In this document: positions 14,989 through 37,197 of the stretch, one piece after another
Position numbering within the stretch: position 1 is the first letter of the stretch
Layout: each line of letters starts with the position of its first letter
From: a virus
Length of the DNA stretch: 41,000 nt
Strand: one strand, 5' to 3'
IMG/VR virus record: IMGVR_UViG_3300009418_000034
Span: 1-41,000 of that record
Translations under genes and position numbers: made by a program
The notes under the pieces: model-generated
Database searches by the model: none
What the model was told of the DNA's origin: nothing
Seen by the model: only the letters and a program-made list of their open reading frames with translations

Positions 14989-15223
14989 TCTTCGACGTAT
15001 CTCCTGTCCATACAGCCGGAACCTTAGCCAGCTTATCCGATATCTCTATAATACGCTCATCCAACCGATCTATCCTGCTCCGATAATACTCATCCATATC
15101 TATAAACGCCGACAGCACCTCCTCAACTGCTACCGCCTTTGCCCTATCCTCATTAACAGTACCCCATTTCCTCTGGATCTTTTCCAGAGGAGCAGGTAGT
15201 GACACCGTACTCTTCTTAGCCAT
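14981..15223 (-). CDS. small helical protein at the head of the leftward operon
   Basis: About 80 residues from ATG 15223 (MAKKSTVSLPAPLEKIQRKW), chosen because AGGAGG lies seven bases upstream. The rest is a charged helix and coiled coil (EVLSAFIDMDEYYRSRIDRLD, then ERIIEISDKLAKV). It is the first gene after the strand switch and a promoter lies just upstream (15249-15277). Function unknown. Confidence 0.65.
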   Translation of the reverse strand: MAKKSTVSLPAPLEKIQRKWGTVNEDRAKAVAVEEVLSAFIDMDEYYRSRIDRLDERIIEISDKLAKVPAVWTGDTSKNE

Positions 15224-15248
15224 AGGCCATCCTCCTGTTAATTCATCA

Positions 15249-15277
15249 ATACTAACGAATATTACCTCGTGAGGCAA
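15249..15277 (-). promoter_or_regulatory. putative promoter of the leftward operon
   Basis: Minus-strand TTGCCT (15277 to 15272) and TAGTAT (15254 to 15249) are separated by 17 nt. Each matches four of six consensus bases. It lies about 30 nt before the first leftward gene, at the strand switch. The motif is weak, but its position is right. Confidence 0.4.
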
Positions 15278-15651
15278 ATTAAGGGGCGAAAATTAGGTAC
15301 CAATTTGAGGGGGGCCAATCTAATGGAAATGGGGGGACCCGCTTCCGGGGGTTCCGCCCCAACCCCTTGCACCCCAACGACTTAGGGCTTCTGAGGCCAC
15401 GGAGAGGGATTTTCGTGAGGGAACGCAAGAGAAACGCATGGATACTAACCATAATACCTATTATAGGGAGTATCCCTTTCGCAAATGATTCCGTAACCTA
15501 TTGTATCCCTTGGGCTTACGAGGATTCCCCCAAGGATCGCCGCGTAATTCCTTAGAAACCATGCCCTCTCCTTCTACCGCTCCAGCACCCTCCAGTTTTT
15601 CCTCCCTTAATCTCTGTGACATGTAGCTGGGGTATGCTCAGTTACCTTAGA
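15278..15651. other. strand-switch spacer with one possible micro-ORF
   Basis: The first ~90 nt are rich in G and C runs, with GGGGTT/AACCCC as an inverted pair near 15350. A short hydrophobic + strand frame (15415-15555) is listed separately. No other gene or recognised RNA is seen here. Confidence 0.4.
15415..15555 (+). CDS. possible 46-residue signal-peptide-like micro-ORF
   Basis: From GTG 15415 the frame encodes a basic start (RERKRN), a hydrophobic core (AWILTIIPIIGSIPFA), a possible cleavage site before NDS, and a short tail with one cysteine. GGAGAGGG lies upstream. A + strand terminator lies 97 nt downstream, which would fit a short transcript. No family match; it may be chance. Confidence 0.25.
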   Translation: MRERKRNAWILTIIPIIGSIPFANDSVTYCIPWAYEDSPKDRRVIP

Positions 15652-15678
15652 GTCCCTATTCATTATAGGGACATTTTT
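15652..15678 (+). terminator. rho-independent terminator
   Basis: GTCCCTAT (15652-15659) pairs perfectly with ATAGGGAC (15665-15672) around a 5-nt loop, followed by ATTTTT. It would stop rightward transcription entering from 15300-15650, before the structured region begins. Confidence 0.65.
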
Positions 15679-15679
15679 A

Positions 15680-16079
15680 AGGGCTCCTTGTGATTGGGCA
15701 AGGCGGCGACATCGACGGCCAGTGAAACCGGCTGACTGCGAGGGACATTTGGTGAGGTCGTTTCGTTGACGAGCCGGACGTCCAGAACGCGCCATAAACC
15801 ACCTCATATTTGCCGGTCGTTTTGCTCGTCTCAATGCCCCGTCTAAAACGGCGCGAGACCTATTTACAACCAATTTGCAAGCAAAAAAGGGGTTGGAGGA
15901 AAAATTATTTCTCTCTGTAAATGGGCCTCAAGACAGCTTTTCTCAAAAAAACATGCAGTTTTCCCTTGCGGATACTGAAGAAGTATACTATTCTATAACT
16001 CCCAGCAGGAAAACAAAACGAAACGAACACAGGGGGCCCGATATTACCTCCTACTGCTGACCCAGAACCTTACGATGGC
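15680..16079. other. non-coding segment upstream of the repeated-hairpin RNA
   Basis: There is no convincing gene. The first half contains long-range inverted pairs: GACGAGC with GCTCGTC (about 15769 and 15823), CCGGCT with AGCCGG, and GTCTC with GAGAC around CGTTTT/AAAACG. The second half is AT-richer and contains a possible + strand promoter, TTGCGG (15966-15971) 17 nt from TATTCT (15989-15994), with TATACT and TATAAC nearby. This could be the start of the large RNA at 16080-16880. Confidence 0.4.
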
Positions 16080-16880
16080 CTACAGCACGAGTAGGGTCGT
16101 TTAAGTGACACCGCAGGATCTGGAGCTACTACATCAGGCTTAGCATTCTCGAGCAGAAACAACCAAGACGTCACACGGTCGGTTTCGGTCCCGACCTGCT
16201 CACCCTCGAACAGCCAAGACACGGTCGAATTAACGGACGCACACGCGGAAGCTTCAGGCCTTCCGAGACCGTGGGACAGACGATGTCCAATTGGAGTTTC
16301 GGTCCTCCAGAGGGAACAGGGAAAACAAGGTCGTATACGCAGGAGCTACAGACCTCCTGTCACCTACGAGAGCGGACAGCCCAAAGGCAAGCATCACTGA
16401 CAAAAGTCTTGCAGAGTTAACCCCCTGCTGGAAGCTGAACCAAACTCAGTTCGTTACGATGACGGGTACGGTCCCCGTCAAGCTTCCTGCAAAGAAATTG
16501 CAGGGTAAAGAGCGAATCCCAAGACGTAGGCTATCAGCGGAGTATCGGACCTCCGCGCTCTACTTTGTGAATGAGTAGTCAGTGTTTGCGGATAGGTCGG
16601 GAGGTTGTGACGCATGCCTCGCGGTAGCCTATGAGAACACCCCAAAAGCCAGTCCTACATTCACACGTAGCCACAACCACACCATGACACATTGCGGAGT
16701 TTCGGACCTTCGCGTGGTGATGTCGTATGTAGGCAGGTCTTCCACATGGGACACGCGGAGAACATCCTGCATTGTGTGTTGCCGAGTTGACAGTGTGGAA
16801 GGCCGATGGTTCTGTGGCCTGAGGGCCGGGGGCATACGCGGTAGCAAAGAACGGAAGGCCCCATACGCTACCGCACAAAT
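16080..16880 (+). ncRNA. large structured non-coding RNA with repeated hairpins
   Basis: About 800 nt without a convincing gene folds on paper into many local domains. Seven hairpins of one type (listed separately) sit mostly on closing helices: GAGCAG/CTGCTC (16151/16196), CACGGTC/GACCGTG (16220/16267), TCGTA/TACGA (16331/16365), TTAC/GTAA around two hairpins (16455/16505), GTAG/CTAC (16526/16559) and CCTACAT/ATGTAGG (16654/16727). Further helices are CTTCCACA/TGTGGAAG (16739/16794) and GCGGTAGC/GCTACCGC (16838/16867). G-U pairs favour the + strand. Size, location in a phage and ornate layout recall the GOLLD and ROOL giant RNAs; I cannot assign it to either. A long structured leader of the 16899 operon is the alternative. 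Confidence 0.55.
16177..16713 (+). repeat. seven copies of a hairpin with a conserved 7-8 nt loop
   Basis: Copies are at 16177-16196, 16246-16265, 16292-16309, 16340-16359, 16460-16480, 16537-16556 and 16694-16713. Each has a 5-7 bp stem, usually closed by G-C, and a loop close to tttcGGaC or tttcGGtC. Examples are GGTCGG-tttcggtc-CCGACC, TGGAG-tttcggtc-CTCCA, GCGGAG-tatcggac-CTCCGC and GCGGAG-tttcggac-CTTCGC. One copy (16460) has a 7-nt loop. Stems differ in sequence but always pair, so the loop is the conserved part. Spacing is about 31 to 157 nt. Confidence 0.75.
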
Positions 16881-16898
16881 TCCATAGGAGAAGTTACA

Positions 16899-17231
16899 AT
16901 GGCAAAGATGAACGTGTTACGTCCGACATTCAAAGAGCGCATTGAGGTAGAGATACAGAGCCGGTGGGTGGTCGAAAATCACCACGCAGAATTCAAGTTG
17001 GGATACGCAATGGTTGACGTCATTGCACACGCTGACGATGGCCGCTGGCACCTTGAATATGTCAGCGACAAACGATTCCGCAAACTCACCGAACGGAAAC
17101 CCTACAAGACCTACCGAATACTGGGGGAAGCAATCGACGCGGCAAAAGAAATTCTCGCAGAAGCACACTCCCAAAATTTGGCAAGGATAGCACAACGTGT
17201 CAGTCGTGAGATTGCAAAAATAGCTGAGTGA
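16899..17231 (+). CDS. hypothetical protein, first gene of the rightward region
   Basis: This 110-residue protein (MAKMNVLRPTFKERIEVEIQ) has a beta-rich first half (FKLGYAMVDVIAHADDGRWHLEYVSD) and a helical second half (YRILGEAIDAAKEILAEAHS). AGGAG precedes the ATG. No family recognised. It directly follows the structured region, so its expression may depend on that RNA or on its promoter. Confidence 0.65.
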   Translation: MAKMNVLRPTFKERIEVEIQSRWVVENHHAEFKLGYAMVDVIAHADDGRWHLEYVSDKRFRKLTERKPYKTYRILGEAIDAAKEILAEAHSQNLARIAQRVSREIAKIAE

Positions 17232-17238
17232 TTCATGC

Positions 17239-17340
17239 GCGTAGACGGGGGGGACATTGAGTCCCTCCCTACGCACTATCTACAGCCCCCGTAAGAGGGG
17301 GAACAACACAATCCCGTGTTGTTGGTGTCCGCTCAGGACA
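17239..17340 (+). ncRNA. string of four hairpins between two small genes
   Basis: Four perfect or near-perfect hairpins follow one another in 102 nt. They are GCGTAG/CTACGC (17239-17274) enclosing GGGAC-attga-GTCCC, CCCCC-gtaaga-GGGGG (17286-17301), CAACAC-aatccc-GTGTTG (17304-17321) and TGTCC-gctca-GGACA (17326-17340). They occupy the gap between the genes at 16899 and 17359. The absence of a U-run argues against a simple terminator. Confidence 0.55.
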
Positions 17341-17353
17341 ATCTACAGGAGAT
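17338..17353 (+). repeat. 16-nt ribosome-binding leader repeat, copy 1
   Basis: ACAATCTACAGGAGAT ends 5 nt before the ATG at 17359. The same 16 bases recur at 19622-19637 before the MoxR gene. It contains the Shine-Dalgarno AGGAG, so it may be a shared translation-initiation cassette. Confidence 0.6.
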
Positions 17354-18917: not shown

Positions 18918-19559
18918 TTGCCTATCAAAAGGGCAGGAATTCAGTTCCACAAAATTTCTGAGGGACAATACATTGCAGTTCACTTCTCAAGTGCGACCTC
19001 ATACGTTGTGCACAAAACCGCAAAGAGGAGGTGGGAAATTTTCCCCCTTCTCGTTGACGGGGCAAAGTATAGAGGAGATCACTCCAGACTACACACCGGA
19101 GAGGAGGATAGGTTCGATAGCTGGGGTGACTACCAGCGGAACACAGGGTTCATGTCTGGTCGAAAAGTTGAATACCGACCGCATGCATCAGACGAGGACG
19201 GAAAGCCCAAGGTGAAAAAACACGCCAAGCACAGTGGCTTTCGGTCTGCCGTATCTGTGGGAGGTCTGGAAGAAGCACGAGACTGGATCTCAGAACAACA
19301 CGCCCTTCAGGCCCTGCAAATTTTGGGCGGCTTTGGGGCACGATGCACCGTGTCGTTGATTCATTCAAGCGACAGAAAAATACAACTGATCAAAGTCATT
19401 CGCAGGATTACCGGCTTAGGTCTTAGAGAGGCCAAGAATTTTGTTGATGACGCAAGCCCAAGTAACCCTCAGGTGATTAAGGAGAACATCACACAAGGTG
19501 AAGCGGAAGATATACAGGTCAAAGTTTCGGAAGCTCACGGCGTTGCCAAGTATGAATGA
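18918..19559 (+). CDS. phage protein with ribosomal bL12 C-terminal domain
   Basis: About 213 residues from TTG 18918, chosen because AGGAGG lies 8 nt upstream and no ATG occurs before codon 79. Residues 143-213 (CTVSLIHSSDRKIQLIKVI, RRITGLGLREAKNFVDDA) match the bL12 C-terminal domain, with the K-V-I-R-x-x-T-G-L-G-L-x-E-A-K core. In the ribosome this domain recruits translational GTPases. The ~140-residue N-terminal part is not the usual bL12 dimerisation domain and looks like a separate folded domain. Phage-encoded bL12 CTDs have been described, and translation takeover is a plausible role. It follows the zinc protein and precedes the MoxR promoter. Confidence 0.85.
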   Translation: MPIKRAGIQFHKISEGQYIAVHFSSATSYVVHKTAKRRWEIFPLLVDGAKYRGDHSRLHTGEEDRFDSWGDYQRNTGFMSGRKVEYRPHASDEDGKPKVKKHAKHSGFRSAVSVGGLEEARDWISEQHALQALQILGGFGARCTVSLIHSSDRKIQLIKVIRRITGLGLREAKNFVDDASPSNPQVIKENITQGEAEDIQVKVSEAHGVAKYE

Positions 19560-25197: not shown

Positions 25198-25261
25198 TTT
25201 ACCCCCTTGCTATTGGTGCTCGCATGATTACTTTTAATGACAGCAATCACAGGAGGTGCGA

Positions 25262-26863
25262 ATGGCAAACGTCTTAAACTATAAGTATGGTATCTTCCCA
25301 ACGGCCCCACAGCGCAAGCATCTAACGCGCCGTATGAGGGAGTGTCGGTTGCAATACAACCGCGCCGTCTCTACGCGCAAGCGGCTGAAGGGGTCTCTTA
25401 TGTGTTATAAGACTTTGCCTGTGTTGCATGAGGTCATGGGCCTCGAAAAAGACAACACCAATCCAAACAGACGCACCGCCATCGAGAAGGTGGGTGCCGC
25501 CTATCCAAACATACCAAAGGATAAGTGGAGCAGGATCTACGATCTCAAAACTATCTTTGGAAAAACATTTGATATTAAGAAGAGGCACTGCGACCTTAAG
25601 GTGTTGGCCGCAGAGTGTGACGCACTGCTCCGTGCGGAGCTAACTGAGTTCCGCGCACACTTCAGACAGCCTGAGTCTACCCGACCAGCACGGCCTCCAA
25701 AACGTCCTGTCTATTTCAAGCTATTGCAAGCGGCCTCTCGCCATGCAGGATACGAAGCCAAGATACACATGGACAGAGCCTTCGGATCTCGCCTTGGGAT
25801 ATCTCGCATCCGATTCTCTGTGTCGGGATGTTCTGGTGGAACGGTGGCCAATTTTGAACGGGCGTGTGATCCATCGCCAGATCAACGCCGCATAGGAGCA
25901 TCCGGAGAACCCAATTACAAGCGGAGAGTGGATGCCTATGGATATCAGGTCTTCCGTAACGAGGACATCCTTACTGGCAATAAAATAAAGATACGGGGAC
26001 TCCCTACAGGCATGGATGAAGTCGAAATAAATTTGCATCGTCCATTGCCAGACGGCCATAAGCTAAAACGGGTCGCAGTTATGGAGCGCGGCGGTCAATG
26101 GCAGGTCGTAATGACGTTAGAGGTGACTGACGAGACCTATCAGTTGGTCCCATCATGCCCACGCAAAGCGATTGGTCTCGATCCCGGTACTGCCACGGCA
26201 CTAACCTCAGCAGTATTAGATCGGGACACTGGATCGATAGAGTATGGTGCATGGGATTGGAGTCCACTCGATGCCGCCGAAGATAAGATGGAAGCCATCT
26301 CCCAGAAGCTCTCTGGTATGCAGGGACCGGATCGCAGGACCGGCCAACGGGCCAGCAATCGATGGAAGAAATTGAACGCTCGTCGTCGTCGCCTGCATGC
26401 AACAATCGCACGGAGACGACTGGACATGCACCATAAGATCAGTCGGGAGTTGGTGAACCATGGCCTCGTGGCCATTGGCAACTGGGAGCCACCAAAAGTG
26501 GTGAAGGGCCGCAAAGAATTCCGCAAAGGCAAAACCAAGGCGGTAGAGGCTGGCCCCAAGGGTATCAAGGCAAAGCGGCGAGGCGGTCGTGACCGTGGCA
26601 TCGCCACACTGCGCTCCCTTGCCGCACAGAAAGGCGTCCGAGCCGGTGTTGAAGTCATCGCCTCTGCGGATGAGCGGTATACAACACAACAATGCTCCAA
26701 GTGCAAGGAATTAACCGGACCGAAACAAGACTTATCGACACGCAAATGGACCTGTTCCAAGTGCGGTTCTGAACATGACAGAGATCAAAATGCGGCACTT
26801 AACATCTTGAATCTGGCGTTGGAGGCGTCAGCAAAAATGGGGACACAGTCGCTTGAAAAATAG
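25262..26863 (+). CDS. TnpB-like RNA-guided nuclease
   Basis: About 533 residues from ATG 25262, with AGGAGG upstream. The start (KYGIFPTAPQRKHLTRRMRE, then CRLQYNRAV) is typical of TnpB. An insert of about 150 residues makes it longer than the usual ~400. RuvC motifs are GLDPGTA (Asp307), VAIGNWEPP (401-410), ASADERYTTQQCSKC (Asp470, Glu471, Cys478, Cys481), a second CSKC (498-501) and DRDQNAALNI (Asp506, Asp508). The Glu usually found at RuvC-II is Gly406 here, while Glu471 lies just before the zinc finger. Some TnpB lineages have such a rearranged Glu, so activity is possible. No neighbouring TnpA or IS ends were found. It is followed by structured DNA, as expected for a guide RNA. Confidence 0.85.
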   Translation: MANVLNYKYGIFPTAPQRKHLTRRMRECRLQYNRAVSTRKRLKGSLMCYKTLPVLHEVMGLEKDNTNPNRRTAIEKVGAAYPNIPKDKWSRIYDLKTIFGKTFDIKKRHCDLKVLAAECDALLRAELTEFRAHFRQPESTRPARPPKRPVYFKLLQAASRHAGYEAKIHMDRAFGSRLGISRIRFSVSGCSGGTVANFERACDPSPDQRRIGASGEPNYKRRVDAYGYQVFRNEDILTGNKIKIRGLPTGMDEVEINLHRPLPDGHKLKRVAVMERGGQWQVVMTLEVTDETYQLVPSCPRKAIGLDPGTATALTSAVLDRDTGSIEYGAWDWSPLDAAEDKMEAISQKLSGMQGPDRRTGQRASNRWKKLNARRRRLHATIARRRLDMHHKISRELVNHGLVAIGNWEPPKVVKGRKEFRKGKTKAVEAGPKGIKAKRRGGRDRGIATLRSLAAQKGVRAGVEVIASADERYTTQQCSKCKELTGPKQDLSTRKWTCSKCGSEHDRDQNAALNILNLALEASAKMGTQSLEK

Positions 26864-31110: not shown

Positions 31111-34100
31111 CTACCCCCCGACTAATCGTTGCTGTACCTCACTGACCCCCCCACGTTGCCTTCTTCGACGCCCTCGTCTCTGTCTTCGGCGTCGTCGAGT
31201 AGGCTTAATATCACCCTCGGCCTCCAGCTTCTTGACCAAACCCCTAAGGGCTTCCCTTGCGGCATAGGTGTTAGACATCAACACGCGCTGTGGGTCAGCG
31301 TTCATCAGCTTAAGACCGGCTATCTCCGACAGCATCTGCGTGGACAGCTCGTCTCGTTTCCCTGCCTTGATCATCCTCTGAATCTTACCAAGGGTTGGGA
31401 CCATGGTCATCAAGACATTCTCGTCTTTCTTCCGTAAGCCCGGTACAACCTCGCTCTCCTCACCTGCGTATCTCTCAATAGGACGATCCATGAAGGTCGA
31501 ATAGCCGCGCTCAGGCATCCACTCTCCAAGGATTTTCGCAAACGGTGTCATCGAACTGACGATATCGTCAAAGTTCATCCTGTTGAGATCTTGGAATGGC
31601 AAGTTCGGATTCAAATACACAGGCTTGCTATTCATAATTATTGGCAACCTGACCGCATGCAATTCTTTAAAGTAGTCGGGAGTCGGGGTGTCTCTCCACT
31701 CCGAGGTTATGCCTTCAATGTTCTGGATTAGCTTGGGGATCTTGGCATACCGAGCAGGATCTTCCAACATAGCCGTGATCTGAAGAGGCGTGTTAAAACG
31801 CATCCAGCTGTAGAAGGGGATCACCGTTCTCATAACATTACGCTCGAAATCGGTTAGCCCATGCTCGTAGTCGAATAAGTATTTATTAACCGACGCGGTT
31901 GCAACGTCCTCGTCGCCCGTCTTTAAAAGCTTATCTATGAAGTGCGCTCCTCGCGCATTGTTTTCAAACAGTCTCCCAAATGCACGGTTGTATCTTAGTA
32001 ATGGAGATTGCTGGCCAAAGTACCTCGACAGGAATCCACCTACGTCCTGTATCCTGTCTGCAATATCAGCCGGTTCTCCTGTAAGCTCTTGCGCCCTCTT
32101 AGCCGCTCCGGCTGCTTCAGATCCTAAGGCACCAGTTGGTTGTGGCTCAAGCGTTCCCTTGCCAAGGAGGCGATCAAAGACACCTCGGATGTCATCGTTC
32201 ATTCTGACAGGCACCTTCCCTGTCGAAGGATTGAACATTTGATAGAGGTTGGTCATCCAGTCTTTGACCTTTGCAAAGACTCCCCTTAAGCCTTCTATGG
32301 GTGCCCTGCCTTCGAGTAGATACTGCTCGAATGCCTTAGCAAACCTTTCTTCTTGGCGCACACCCCACTTTCCATCCTTGATATTAGCCCACTTCTCCAC
32401 AACGCCCATGTCGTCAGCATTAATTAGCCGCCGTCGAAAAATATGCGCTGACTCATGGACAATAGTACTGAAGTCACCTGCCTCAAAAATGTTAATGATG
32501 TCTTTTGCTTCATCGTTAAACTCTACGGCACCCTTAGTAACCACACCGTGCTTTTGTAGGAGTGTGCCCGGCGGAGCAACGGGGTCTACCAATCCTTTCT
32601 GGAGGGCAGCACTTACTCCTTGGGAAAGTTCGTCTGCGTAGATTTGCCGTCCTGTGCTTCCTCCGAAGTGACTGCGGAGCGTTTCGACATATTCTTTGTG
32701 AAGTGTATCGTAGATCCCTCGCGCCATATCGGGTGTTCCGGTTGATCCACGAGCGACACCACCCCGTATTCCTCCAATAAATCCTGCATAGTCTTCTTTT
32801 TCAAAATAGGCTCCTACGTGAGTGAAATGTTCTGTGACGTGCCCTTCTTTTTTCAACAGCTTAACCACAGGTTCAAAATAAACTGCATCATCTACGTCCG
32901 AATAGTTCAATATCCTTGCCGCACCCAATCCCGGCTCCGCAGAGAATTGAATTCCATACGGGTCCTTATCGGGATTTAGCTTCGCTCCTAAATCAGCAAG
33001 CTCCTGCTCAGTAAACAACCCTCCGTCCGACCTCCTAAATCGGATAGCCTGTGCTGAACTCACTTCTTCCCCAGCCTGTTCCAACATCCGCGCTGCTTCA
33101 TTTGCGGTAAATCTCTGAGGGCGATACCAGACTACTGCGTCTTGCTTTAATCCATCAGCTACCAAGGCAGCAACCCCACTGGCCGTAGCATCATCACGGG
33201 CCTGTACCGTTATCGCATAGTCTGGCTCCAAGCCGTTCCACGTTCCTACGGCATCACGATTAATGTGATGCTTGAACCCAAGCAACGGTTCAAGTTCTTC
33301 CAAGGCTTTTATCTTAGTCCCATCATGGTTCGTAACCTTGTTGAAAAAATCATTATGGAACTGCTTGAGCTTACTCCACGGAGCATCCTCTACTTCGGAT
33401 AAGGAGAATCCGCCGTGACGAACTATCGCTTCATCCTGTAAGGTTACTAAGCCTGCCTTACTCGAAGTAAAAATAACCCGCTCACCTCTTTTTTGAGCTG
33501 CCTCCGCACTAAGGGGTATGATTTCATCTACCTTCCGCGCCTGTTTGGAGTAGGCAACATCCATTTCTTCAAATCCCGGAAGACCTCTGTATAGACCTCC
33601 AGTGCTATCACCCAACTGTTCCTGCACTGCTCGCAATTTCATCAGTTCAGCCTTGGCATAGGTAGCCGCTGACGCATAACTACCGGCTTCCCCAACCTGC
33701 TCTCTCCACGCCTTCTCGCCACCCACCATACTATAGGCCCGATCTTTGGCTGGGCTGAGGTATTTTTTAGCATACCACCACAATGCCGCTTGAACTTCAT
33801 CGGGAGAAATAAGGCTGTTATGTTCTTTTGACAGTTGGGCTAACTGATACTGAACCCAGCGATATGTGTCCTGTCCCGGCTTACTGCCGACATCGAACAT
33901 GAATTCCCCACGACTCTCATTGAAAATTCCGAACAGTCTTGCTATGTGCCTGTCGTTAACCGTAAACGGAAAGAACCCTGCACCCTTAGCTTGCTGGTAG
34001 TTATTCAAAACAAAGCTTATGGTTTTCATGTCGCCGTCAAAGTGGGCATTCTTATAGAGTTCTATGATCTTCTTCTCCATATCTTTCGTGATGCCCAAGG

Positions 34101-37100
34101 CGCGATCTGTCGTTGTGCCGTCCAGTAAATTGTTTCCTTTTCTCGCGTCTAAAATTTCCCTGTCAAGGGTAAGAGGTCTGCCCCCTTCTATCTCCACTAC
34201 TTCACCCTTCTGAAGACCGGGCAGACCTTCGGCCCTCCTTGCTTCGTTGTACTTCTCAACATCGGTATAACGAGAAAGCCTCGTCTGAAATTCCTTTACA
34301 TTGAACTCGCCAAACTCTTGGTACATCTCACGCGCTATTCGCATGATACCAATGGTATGTAGAAAGTTTGACTCAAGGTCACTTCTGGCAGAAGTAATTG
34401 AGTAGACCCCCGAAAATTCTGCCATGTTCTTTTCGCCAACAGCCTCGCTTACATTCTTCCCAAAGTTCTTATACCACTGATACTCATTCCCACCATGCTT
34501 TAGGGCATAGCTTAGAATCTCCCGTAGGTCTCGGAAGTCCCACGACCACGGCTCGTGTCTGATTCCAGTCTCGCTGTAGGCACCTTCAATAGCTTCGCCA
34601 AGCTCTTCCTTAGCCTCTCGGGATTTCGTCCGACGCAAATCAAAGGTTCTGCGTGGAGCACCCAAAGCTTTACGCAGCATATCAGCAGTGGGAGATGGAT
34701 TATTCTGGAAGATTTCATATAGCCCATCTTCCACGCTGCCATGTGGCAGATCGGGCGCATCAAGGGGAGCTGTCCTGAAAACTTCAGGCGGCTCCTTACC
34801 TACCTTTGAGTATAAAGTGTACCCACTTGGATGGAAGTCGTCGGCGTTGCTATACCGGACCTCAGGACCATACTGCCTCCAGAAATCATCAACAGACTTC
34901 TCATTCTGGATTGCCCACGTTTTAGCTGCAACGTCCCATATCCTTGTTGTTGCTTCGGCTTGGTCTTCATCAATGCCTGTTGCCAGTAGCTTTCTCTTAA
35001 AGGCTTCGGTTCCCTTGGCCACATGATCAAAGCTGGCTTTCTTAATCCCACGCTCCATGCTCGTAAGCATGTGGGTTTCAATGTCTGTAACCAGATCCTT
35101 GGTGAATGCCCCTGAGTTAAATATCCCCTTGCCGTTGATGGTTGCACTAAGATCGTTGCCTGTCCAGTTTTTACCTGCGACAGTAATCCAAGTGTCATCC
35201 ATCCCCAAGCGACCACCCAATAGAGTTTCCACTCCCTCCCTGACAACAAGAGGAAGGTTCGCCGTGCCCTTTGCCTGTAAGGCCATAGACATAGCATACC
35301 GTCTGGGGTTGGTAACTCCAGCCAGCCAGTTCTGAAAGACGTTACTGTACTGATTTCGCAGGTGGTACCCGGGGCTAAGAAGAGCATACCCCTTCCATAT
35401 ACCCTGTACCGCCGCAAAGCCCTTGAAGAAGCCCTGCATCATATCGTCTTCGTCTTTCATAAACCTGTTCATCTTGACAAGATCTTCATAAATAGGCTTG
35501 GGCATTATAACTGCCCCGGGATTATCAGCAAGTAAATCAGCCCAGATCCCATTCTCTCCTATTTCATCAAGCTCTTTCTTCTGATACTGCTTAAGCGTCC
35601 GAGGGTGCATTATGGCATACCCCCTGCGCTCCAATTCGGCAACCTTCCCTGCGTCCTTGAACAGCGCACCGCCCTCTGCCTTGTCAAACTTCCTGACTAT
35701 AGTGGGGTCATCCAAAGTGGACTTAACAAATCCACGAGTAGCAACAGCACGAACAGATTCCATCCCACGCTTTGTTGTGGCTTTTACTACATCCAGTTCG
35801 ACGGGATGACCTGCCACAACGCGCTCAATAATATTATTGTACACCTTAGAACGAGCGAAGGTCGGCACATCTGTGCCAAGCAAGCCTGTGTTTTCCGCAA
35901 ACTTATTGGCGGCATCGGGGTCTATTCTTCTTATATCATCGAGATTCATGTAATCGTCTGAATTCTTCCCTGATATAAACTCCTTCCATGCTCGAACAGA
36001 CCCTTTGGTAAGAGGGTCACGCGCCGGTGCATACTTATCCCATTCACGTACCACGCTCTGCGAAAGAGCCCCTGCCCCTACTTCATCGTCCGCAAATTTT
36101 GCCCATGCATCACGAAATTCATCAGCCTTTTCTATGACTTCGTCGTACCGATCACTGACACCCTTTTCCATCAAGTGACTCTTAATGATCGCCTTGAACT
36201 TTTCATCGCCTTGATCAAGGAAGAGTGTGAACATTATTCGCTGGTCAGTAGTCATGTTGGCGGCAAGGCTCGCCGCAACTTCTTGGACCTGCACGTAACC
36301 TTGATCGACCTCAGCAAAGAATCCTGCTTTTTTGTTAAGATAGGACTGAACTATTTCCGGGCCTTCTTTGCCAAGTAACTCTTGGGCTTCTTTCCCTGCC
36401 CTTACCCCATACTGCTTAACTAAAAAATGGGGAATAAACTTTTCACCAAATCCTTGTGAAAGAGGCACTCCTCTACGTGCAAGGGAGTCTATTAATGCAG
36501 GAGCCCCCCCTGCCTTTCGGGCGGCGTTGAGAAGCTTGACGGTTCCAAATCCGGTGTATGTCGTAGGATCAAGCATAACGTCCATAAGAAAACCGAGTCC
36601 TGCCGCTGTGTATCGCCCTGTGGTACTCCCCCCAAACACCTCTGTCTGCTTTAAGACATCTGACCATCCCGGCCTTCTCGCTCCCTCCAGTTCAATCCCC
36701 GGAAGAGCATTAATAAATTCAGTGCCCCCCTGCTCAATGGCCTTACCCCAATCTTCTGTCTTTATGTATTCATCAACAATGCCTACAGTGGTAAACTGTC
36801 CGATCTGTAGCACGTCCGAAATACCTTGGAAGGCAGTTTGGAACACCGAAGGCTTGGTTTCTCCCACGGCCTGTGCTGCCTCAGCAAGTCTTCCCTCTTG
36901 CGTAAGCTTATGAAGAAGGCGATCTGTTTCAGTCTGCGCCCCCTTAAAAGCTCTTCTTTGACTCGGAGAAATATCTGATTGCGTGAACCCGGGATTGGGC
37001 TGACTGATGAGTTCGCTGGTAGGGAAAAACGGCATAGCAGCGGCAGGGTCCTCAAAGTCCTCACCCCAAGAAGATTTTAACCCGGGCAATTGACCCGCAG

Positions 37101-37197
37101 GCTTAAAGCCCGGCAGGGGCTCCATACCCATTGAACCAGCAAGCTCGTTTAAATATTCAAGCTCTGTACTTGTAAAATCCCTACCTGTTAATGGCAT
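31111..37197 (-). CDS. giant internal-virion or polyvalent-type protein
   Basis: This 2,028-residue protein is large enough to be a polyvalent protein ejected with DNA. Several regions are distinct. An N-terminal segment ends with hydrophobic GLGFLMDVMLDP. Around residue 610 lies FKGFAAVQGIWKGYALLSPG. A middle region has FSGVYSITSARSDLESNFLH and FTVNDRHIARLFG. Near residue 1580 FSTIVHESAHIFRRR has a zinc-protease-like HExxH. Later comes FERNVMRTVIPFYSWMRF. The C-terminus is a dense Arg tract (TRRRRRQRRGRRRRQRGG). Such proteins are known as large polyvalent phage proteins, ejected to protect phage DNA. It is followed by a terminator and a hairpin. The exact role is not shown. Confidence 0.65.
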   Translation of the reverse strand: MPLTGRDFTSTELEYLNELAGSMGMEPLPGFKPAGQLPGLKSSWGEDFEDPAAAMPFFPTSELISQPNPGFTQSDISPSQRRAFKGAQTETDRLLHKLTQEGRLAEAAQAVGETKPSVFQTAFQGISDVLQIGQFTTVGIVDEYIKTEDWGKAIEQGGTEFINALPGIELEGARRPGWSDVLKQTEVFGGSTTGRYTAAGLGFLMDVMLDPTTYTGFGTVKLLNAARKAGGAPALIDSLARRGVPLSQGFGEKFIPHFLVKQYGVRAGKEAQELLGKEGPEIVQSYLNKKAGFFAEVDQGYVQVQEVAASLAANMTTDQRIMFTLFLDQGDEKFKAIIKSHLMEKGVSDRYDEVIEKADEFRDAWAKFADDEVGAGALSQSVVREWDKYAPARDPLTKGSVRAWKEFISGKNSDDYMNLDDIRRIDPDAANKFAENTGLLGTDVPTFARSKVYNNIIERVVAGHPVELDVVKATTKRGMESVRAVATRGFVKSTLDDPTIVRKFDKAEGGALFKDAGKVAELERRGYAIMHPRTLKQYQKKELDEIGENGIWADLLADNPGAVIMPKPIYEDLVKMNRFMKDEDDMMQGFFKGFAAVQGIWKGYALLSPGYHLRNQYSNVFQNWLAGVTNPRRYAMSMALQAKGTANLPLVVREGVETLLGGRLGMDDTWITVAGKNWTGNDLSATINGKGIFNSGAFTKDLVTDIETHMLTSMERGIKKASFDHVAKGTEAFKRKLLATGIDEDQAEATTRIWDVAAKTWAIQNEKSVDDFWRQYGPEVRYSNADDFHPSGYTLYSKVGKEPPEVFRTAPLDAPDLPHGSVEDGLYEIFQNNPSPTADMLRKALGAPRRTFDLRRTKSREAKEELGEAIEGAYSETGIRHEPWSWDFRDLREILSYALKHGGNEYQWYKNFGKNVSEAVGEKNMAEFSGVYSITSARSDLESNFLHTIGIMRIAREMYQEFGEFNVKEFQTRLSRYTDVEKYNEARRAEGLPGLQKGEVVEIEGGRPLTLDREILDARKGNNLLDGTTTDRALGITKDMEKKIIELYKNAHFDGDMKTISFVLNNYQQAKGAGFFPFTVNDRHIARLFGIFNESRGEFMFDVGSKPGQDTYRWVQYQLAQLSKEHNSLISPDEVQAALWWYAKKYLSPAKDRAYSMVGGEKAWREQVGEAGSYASAATYAKAELMKLRAVQEQLGDSTGGLYRGLPGFEEMDVAYSKQARKVDEIIPLSAEAAQKRGERVIFTSSKAGLVTLQDEAIVRHGGFSLSEVEDAPWSKLKQFHNDFFNKVTNHDGTKIKALEELEPLLGFKHHINRDAVGTWNGLEPDYAITVQARDDATASGVAALVADGLKQDAVVWYRPQRFTANEAARMLEQAGEEVSSAQAIRFRRSDGGLFTEQELADLGAKLNPDKDPYGIQFSAEPGLGAARILNYSDVDDAVYFEPVVKLLKKEGHVTEHFTHVGAYFEKEDYAGFIGGIRGGVARGSTGTPDMARGIYDTLHKEYVETLRSHFGGSTGRQIYADELSQGVSAALQKGLVDPVAPPGTLLQKHGVVTKGAVEFNDEAKDIINIFEAGDFSTIVHESAHIFRRRLINADDMGVVEKWANIKDGKWGVRQEERFAKAFEQYLLEGRAPIEGLRGVFAKVKDWMTNLYQMFNPSTGKVPVRMNDDIRGVFDRLLGKGTLEPQPTGALGSEAAGAAKRAQELTGEPADIADRIQDVGGFLSRYFGQQSPLLRYNRAFGRLFENNARGAHFIDKLLKTGDEDVATASVNKYLFDYEHGLTDFERNVMRTVIPFYSWMRFNTPLQITAMLEDPARYAKIPKLIQNIEGITSEWRDTPTPDYFKELHAVRLPIIMNSKPVYLNPNLPFQDLNRMNFDDIVSSMTPFAKILGEWMPERGYSTFMDRPIERYAGEESEVVPGLRKKDENVLMTMVPTLGKIQRMIKAGKRDELSTQMLSEIAGLKLMNADPQRVLMSNTYAAREALRGLVKKLEAEGDIKPTRRRRRQRRGRRRRQRGGVSEVQQRLVGG

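Follow-up and report, generated by a model that had tools for sequence, protein, structure and literature searches.

In an uncultured phage whose genes run in two opposing blocks, ~880 nt at the junction are non-coding; does this stretch act as an RNA and, if so, as what kind of RNA? The DNA in question, here called the window, is the 41 kb from position 1 to 41,000 of IMG/VR virus record IMGVR_UViG_3300009418_000034. Its leftward gene block, which extends up to 15,277, contains the terminase, the portal region and the major head protein, and its rightward block, from 16,899, contains a DnaB-type helicase, an ATPase/VWA pair and an IS605-type TnpB. The best reading frames there span 95-101 aa and begin with TTG or GTG, and all five candidate ORFs are disrupted by stops or frameshifts in a close homologue, L004; from ~16,000 to 16,898 no coding frame is maintained between the window and L004. 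These observations confirm the region as real and show it to be non-coding. The initial annotation had placed a non-coding element at this strand switch and had named coding frames kept open in homologous phages as grounds for abandoning it; L004 has these frames broken, and the proposal stands.

Extent and leader position of the element

The block of identity between the window and L004 begins abruptly at ~16,003, just 3' of promoter-like hexamers (Table 1), and ends at the Shine-Dalgarno sequence of the first rightward gene. The promoter-like site is too weak to have been detected in the window by a generic promoter scan; the aligned hexamers in L004 are TTGACT-18-TATACT. Over 16003-16819 the two sequences are 98% identical, and upstream of the promoter their likeness is far lower, at ~70% over 15,212-15,718. 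Judging from the sequence, we infer that transcription of the leader starts near 16,000. The gene directly behind the leader differs in L004, with the Shine-Dalgarno sequence and start codon staying in place; since the leader is kept while the downstream gene differs, it seems to be independent of one particular gene. A terminator scan found no intrinsic terminator between the element and the first rightward gene, whose product matches neither Pfam nor PHROG families. Because it spans the distance from a sigma-70-like promoter to the Shine-Dalgarno sequence of that gene, the element is a 5' leader by position, and it appears to occupy ~16,000-16,880 on the + strand as the 5' leader of the rightward operon. 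The interval first assigned to it, 16,080-16,880, was right at its 3' end; the promoter and the L004 block move its 5' end out to ~16,000.

Table 1. Positions of the leader, its hairpins and its flanking signals in the window
Feature	Position	Strand	Basis or remark
Weak sigma-70-like promoter, TTGCGG-17 nt-TATTCT	15966..15994	+	Sequence, alignment
Predicted non-coding structured leader RNA	15998..16890	+	L004 identity block, broken ORFs, no terminator
5' hairpin, AGGGGG/CCUCCU	16031..16052	+	Outer pair A-U in window, G-C in L004
H1, GGUCGG-UUUCGGUC-CCGACC	16177..16196	+	GC>GU in L004
Element GCCAAGACAC(C)GGTCGAA	16211..16232	+	Common to L007 leader; suggestive
H2, CGGAAG-CUUCAGGC-CUUCCG	16246..16265	+	Within helix 16220-16226/16267-16273
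H3, UUGGAG-UUUCGGUC-CUCCAG	16291..16310	+	UA>UG in L004
H4, GCAGGAG-CUACAGAC-CUCCUGU	16339..16360	+	
Word ACGAGAGCGGAC	16366-16377	+	Also common to L007 leader; suggestive
H5, UGACGGG-UACGGUC-CCCGUCA	16460..16480	+	7-nt loop
H6, GCGGAG-UAUCGGAC-CUCCGC	16537..16556	+	
H7, UGCGGAG-UUUCGGAC-CUUCGCG	16693..16714	+	
3' hairpin, GCGGUAGC/GCUACCGC	16838..16874	+	Just 5' of Shine-Dalgarno; GUGACAGC/GCUGUCAC in L004
Shine-Dalgarno of first rightward gene	16885..16893	+	Sequence
First rightward gene, 110 aa	16899..17231	+	ORF list, profile searches

Comparison with L004 shows 2.0% of sites differing in the leader (817 nt, indels excluded), and at four-fold sites 3.4% differing in neighbouring small genes and 19% in the terminase. 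We set aside identity to L004 as a sign of constraint, nearby genes being likewise ~97% identical: the genome is mosaic and this stretch recent, so that identity of the leader alone is weak evidence.

Several other features lie near the switch or further into the gene blocks. Upstream of the leftward genes, a non-coding block at 15281-15366 (GGGGGGACCCGCTTCCGGGGGTTCCGCCCC and flank) is ~72% conserved with L007-L009, relatives described below; a similar GACCCGC/GGGGG stretch was seen by eye in L023, and the block may serve as a packaging site or as the leader of the leftward genes. Between the divergent blocks, operator-like palindromes at 15440-15475 and 15652-15672 have a common CCTAT..ATAGGG core, and L004 has palindromes at both places. 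A block of ~30 nt at 15684-15714 (CTCCTTGTGATTGGGCAAGGCGGCGACATCG) is identical in L004, in surroundings that are ~70% alike. Behind the first rightward gene, the gap at 17230-17350 contains a strong hairpin run without a T run, and folding gave z -4.5 in a 150-nt window starting at 17200. The TnpB (IS605 OrfB / Cas12f1-like TNB domain) lies at 25256-26863, inside the rightward operon. A 213-aa protein encoded at 18918-19559 ends in a ribosomal L7/L12 C-terminal domain and adjoins a MoxR-type ATPase and a VWA (DUF2201) protein, and the 2028-aa ORF at 31111-37197 has no Pfam match.

A family of hairpins with a common loop

The initial annotation had based its RNA on nested helices along the whole length of the element. 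Many 6-8 bp helices are indeed present; this abundance is not itself evidence, since the folding energy lies within the range of shuffled sequences and the number of hairpins within chance. Relative to dinucleotide shuffles, the z score of the leader's folding energy was -0.78 (+ strand) and -1.36 (- strand), and in a second folding set -1.22/-1.65, with control stretches elsewhere in the window varying as widely. The leader contains 19 hairpins, the shuffles 13.7 +/- 4.2, and 36 of 300 shuffles had as many. With z near -1, folding energy was dropped as a sign of structure.

The loops are another matter. Seven hairpins between 16,177 and 16,714 combine a common loop, Y-H-(H)-C-R-R-N-C, closed by G-C, with stems that differ. 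The leader holds 11 pairs of hairpins with similar loops, as against 0.32 in shuffles, and none of 300 shuffles reaches this number. When the loop motif was counted regardless of any stem, all instances within the leader, seven in number, lay on its + strand, and a further 46 were spread over both strands of the remaining window, a density that is not independent because the motif was defined after the hairpins had been seen. Apart from the closing pair, the motif does not presuppose a stem, and a stem of at least 6 bp (6-7 bp) flanked all seven instances in the leader and none of the 46 elsewhere, both strands included (Fisher p 6e-9). When six of the hairpins were aligned, five of the six stem positions had two-sided changes, with 100% pairing against 69% in shuffles, a figure that is partly selected since the six had been chosen as hairpins. 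An additional Y1-R6 pair inside the loop (U-G or C-G) fits all aligned hairpins. The array is thus supported mainly by the comparison of its own members. As one loop is carried on many stems, the loop would be the part that is recognised, with several copies of the partner on each RNA.

Changes between the window and L004 bear on the same structure. In a joint model of 152 pairs built from both sequences, seven pairs differ, none of them has lost its pairing, and in four both bases have changed, namely 16031/16052 and, in the last hairpin, 16839/16873, 16841/16871 and 16842/16870. A model built from the window only predicted 14 changed pairs, half of which (7/14) still pair, with the same four two-sided changes. 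On this two-sequence comparison, covariation between homologues is real and limited to two helices, a limit set by there being one independent close homologue in the collections searched. A lack of covariation had been named at the outset as telling against the RNA: four two-sided changes answer this in part, for two helices. The proposal that G-U pairs favour the + strand was borne out by a G-U pair in H7 and by the L004 changes GC>GU at 16177/16196 and UA>UG at 16292/16309; the + strand is favoured because these changes to G-U would give mismatches on the - strand.

Leaders at the strand switch of related phages

Relatives of the terminase were gathered from viral and bacterial genome collections. 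Beyond near-copies, we found three comparable arrangements, in L007 (with L008 and L009), in L031 (with L032) and in L035, each with a rightward TTGACA-17-TATNNT promoter at the switch (TTGACA-17-TATACT in L007, TTGACA-17-TATCAT in L031 and TTGACA-17-TATGTT in L035) followed by a gene-free leader of 350-450 nt. The terminase-relative search itself added a comparable leader through L031 and L035 only. Promoter-plus-gap matches beside L026, L028 and L031 (+ strand) were rejected, as the apparent gaps hold portal-like genes whose starts had been missed by the ORF filter. The nearest cultured terminase is that of Pseudanabaena phage Pam1 (50%); the annotation of this phage shows a CI/Cro switch, and where its genes change strand there is no gap of the kind described here.

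A word of 18 nt and a hairpin loop occur in the same order in the leaders of both L007 and L035, a likeness above that of all 300 shuffles. Two further matches link the window to the L007 leader (Table 1); two of 300 shuffles score as high, and this sharing of sequence is suggestive. The L031 leader has no detectable sequence in common. Hairpins of the loop family were not found in L007, L031 or L035, and the family is restricted to the window's lineage. Scanning the viral collection for three motifs of the leader returned no new family member, the window's lineage, L007 with its near-copies and L035's own record being counted as already known; the new loci hit by the scans (L014, L018, L099, L100 and L168-L171) proved on reading to be coding sequence and were judged chance. 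A pattern drawn from the G-rich stretch at 15,281-15,366 hit L007-type contigs and no others in the viral collection, and phage and plasmid collections gave no DNA match to the leader.

In L035, the leader starts (6702-6660, - strand) with TTGATCTTTGAAAATCGAATAAAGGCAG, which has the look of an rRNA-type boxA, and the L007 leader retains the second half of this element (GAAAATCGAATAAAGGCA), not its boxA part.

Proposed function of the leader and comparison with known RNAs

At the level of sequence, our comparisons demonstrate a non-coding + strand element in leader position, with a family of hairpins on covarying stems and with similar leaders in related phages. The best explanation, which we put forward tentatively and with a good deal of reserve, is that it is the leader of the rightward operon and that its loops are docking sites for a partner controlling expression of the operon. 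Host sigma-70 polymerase would make a long 5' leader of the rightward operon, presumably an early one to judge from its replication genes, and the RNA would fold during its own transcription. A single kind of partner, most probably an RNA-binding protein from either phage or host, could then dock at each of the seven loops, and the complex would remain on the nascent early transcript, where it would control elongation, protection and expression of ~0.9 kb of untranslated RNA and of the operon behind it. The succession of promoter-like sequence, RNA, Shine-Dalgarno sequence and start codon, uninterrupted by a terminator, supports this order of events; we infer that the leader is transcribed, early, and acts with its partner in cis. 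No RNA-binding domain was recognised in the scanned genes of the rightward operon. The element is most likely a structured leader RNA that is new and of narrow distribution, with repeated hairpins that dock one partner.

A broader claim, possible and still more speculative, is that of a new phage RNA class: leaders of early operons at the strand switch in a group of uncultured phages, changing so quickly that sequence searches miss them, and taking here the form of a multivalent array of identical loops that assembles many copies of a partner on the nascent transcript. Few large structured RNAs are known from phages, and for most of them no function has been established; one loop displayed seven times on covarying stems would allow the partner to be fished out directly. 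Should the leaders of L007, L031 and L035 be of the same kind, a promoter followed by a leader at the switch would serve to find fast-evolving RNAs that covariance models miss.

The likeness to GOLLD and ROOL noted initially suggests a different reading, unlikely on balance and still of some weight, namely that the leader is processed or terminated to give a stable, free-standing RNA of ~0.9 kb, perhaps self-assembling, which acts in trans rather than on the operon. The large phage RNAs GOLLD and ROOL assemble into cages made of RNA only and often, if not universally, lie near tRNA islands (PMC12286853). The element resembles them as a giant (>600 nt) structured RNA in a phage setting, it is kept in L004 while the downstream gene is exchanged, and its repeated identical loops could be contacts of a homo-oligomer. 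It differs in having no covariance-model match and in being continuous with the start of an mRNA, with no terminator at its 3' end; ARAGORN found no tRNA, and so no tRNA island, in the 41 kb window, and the folding energy is ordinary. A search of the whole window against Rfam 15 at the gathering score gave no match, and one of 15300-17300 against all families at E<=10 gave nothing credible, GOLLD, ROOL and OLE included; the best weak matches (microRNA, sar, snoRNA) were put down to chance. The leaders of L007 and L035 likewise had no match to GOLLD, ROOL or OLE at E<=5. The long structured + strand RNA of the initial annotation finds support in the loop-sharing hairpins with their covarying stems and in the compensatory changes seen in L004; its GOLLD/ROOL reading does not, given the lack of an Rfam match and of tRNAs and the continuity with Shine-Dalgarno sequence and start codon. 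The element may be a distant member beyond Rfam's reach.

We consider it improbable that the region works as DNA, either as an origin or as a single-strand initiation region, with hairpins that are recognised in single-stranded form. The site does coincide with the switch of strand and GC skew, and it has repeated hairpins near divergent promoters, but the loop motif is restricted to one strand, only the + strand keeps G-U pairs and changes to G-U, and placement from promoter to start codon suits a transcript.

A relation to tRNA, the array mimicking or binding tRNA elbows or tRNA-handling enzymes, is quite improbable. The loops (UU-C-R-R-N-C-C) look like a T-loop, consensus GUUCRANYC, plus one base: they have the invariant closing G-C, the invariant C followed by a purine, and the NYC 3' part with its final pyrimidine before the closing C, and the H5 loop has the T-loop size of 7 nt. 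Structured RNAs that recognise the elbow do use T-loops, a five-nucleotide motif closed by a reverse-Hoogsteen pair of U at position 1 with A at position 5 (PMC4810234). This U1-A5 pair is not kept in the array, however, where the equivalent of position 5 is G in 7/7 window hairpins and A only in H3 of L004; six of the seven loops are one base too long, and the resemblance was judged by eye. Finally, an ordinary non-coding phage spacer with chance pairing would fit the ordinary folding energy and hairpin count but is very improbable, being contradicted by the loop family with its covarying stems and by the compensatory changes in L004.

The leader with docking sites, our preferred reading, has its nearest analogues by position in the antitermination RNAs of phage early leaders. 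Lambda nut consists of boxA next to boxB, a hairpin loop in an early leader that is read by protein; the window leader likewise presents hairpin loops, as an array in place of one hairpin, and on reading it has no boxA-boxB arrangement. We rejected a boxA/NusB reading, since a boxA-like sequence (GATCTTTGAAAA) occurs in the L035 leader only and the L007 copy has no boxA part. HK022 put is ~70 nt long with two stem-loops and is present in both the leftward and rightward operons (PMC9378689). Like the cis-acting putL and putR, the window element would be a structured leader RNA of an early phage operon, untranslated and directly behind a sigma-70 promoter. It differs from them in being ~880 nt long, in having seven loop-sharing hairpins in place of two stem-loops and in lying on one side only. 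No strong + strand intrinsic terminators, against which antitermination could work, were found within the 14 kb rightward operon, so that Rho, pausing or stability would be the concern of any put-like role. In position and logic the window leader is thus similar to lambda nut and HK022 put, at about ten times the length and with an array of hairpins.
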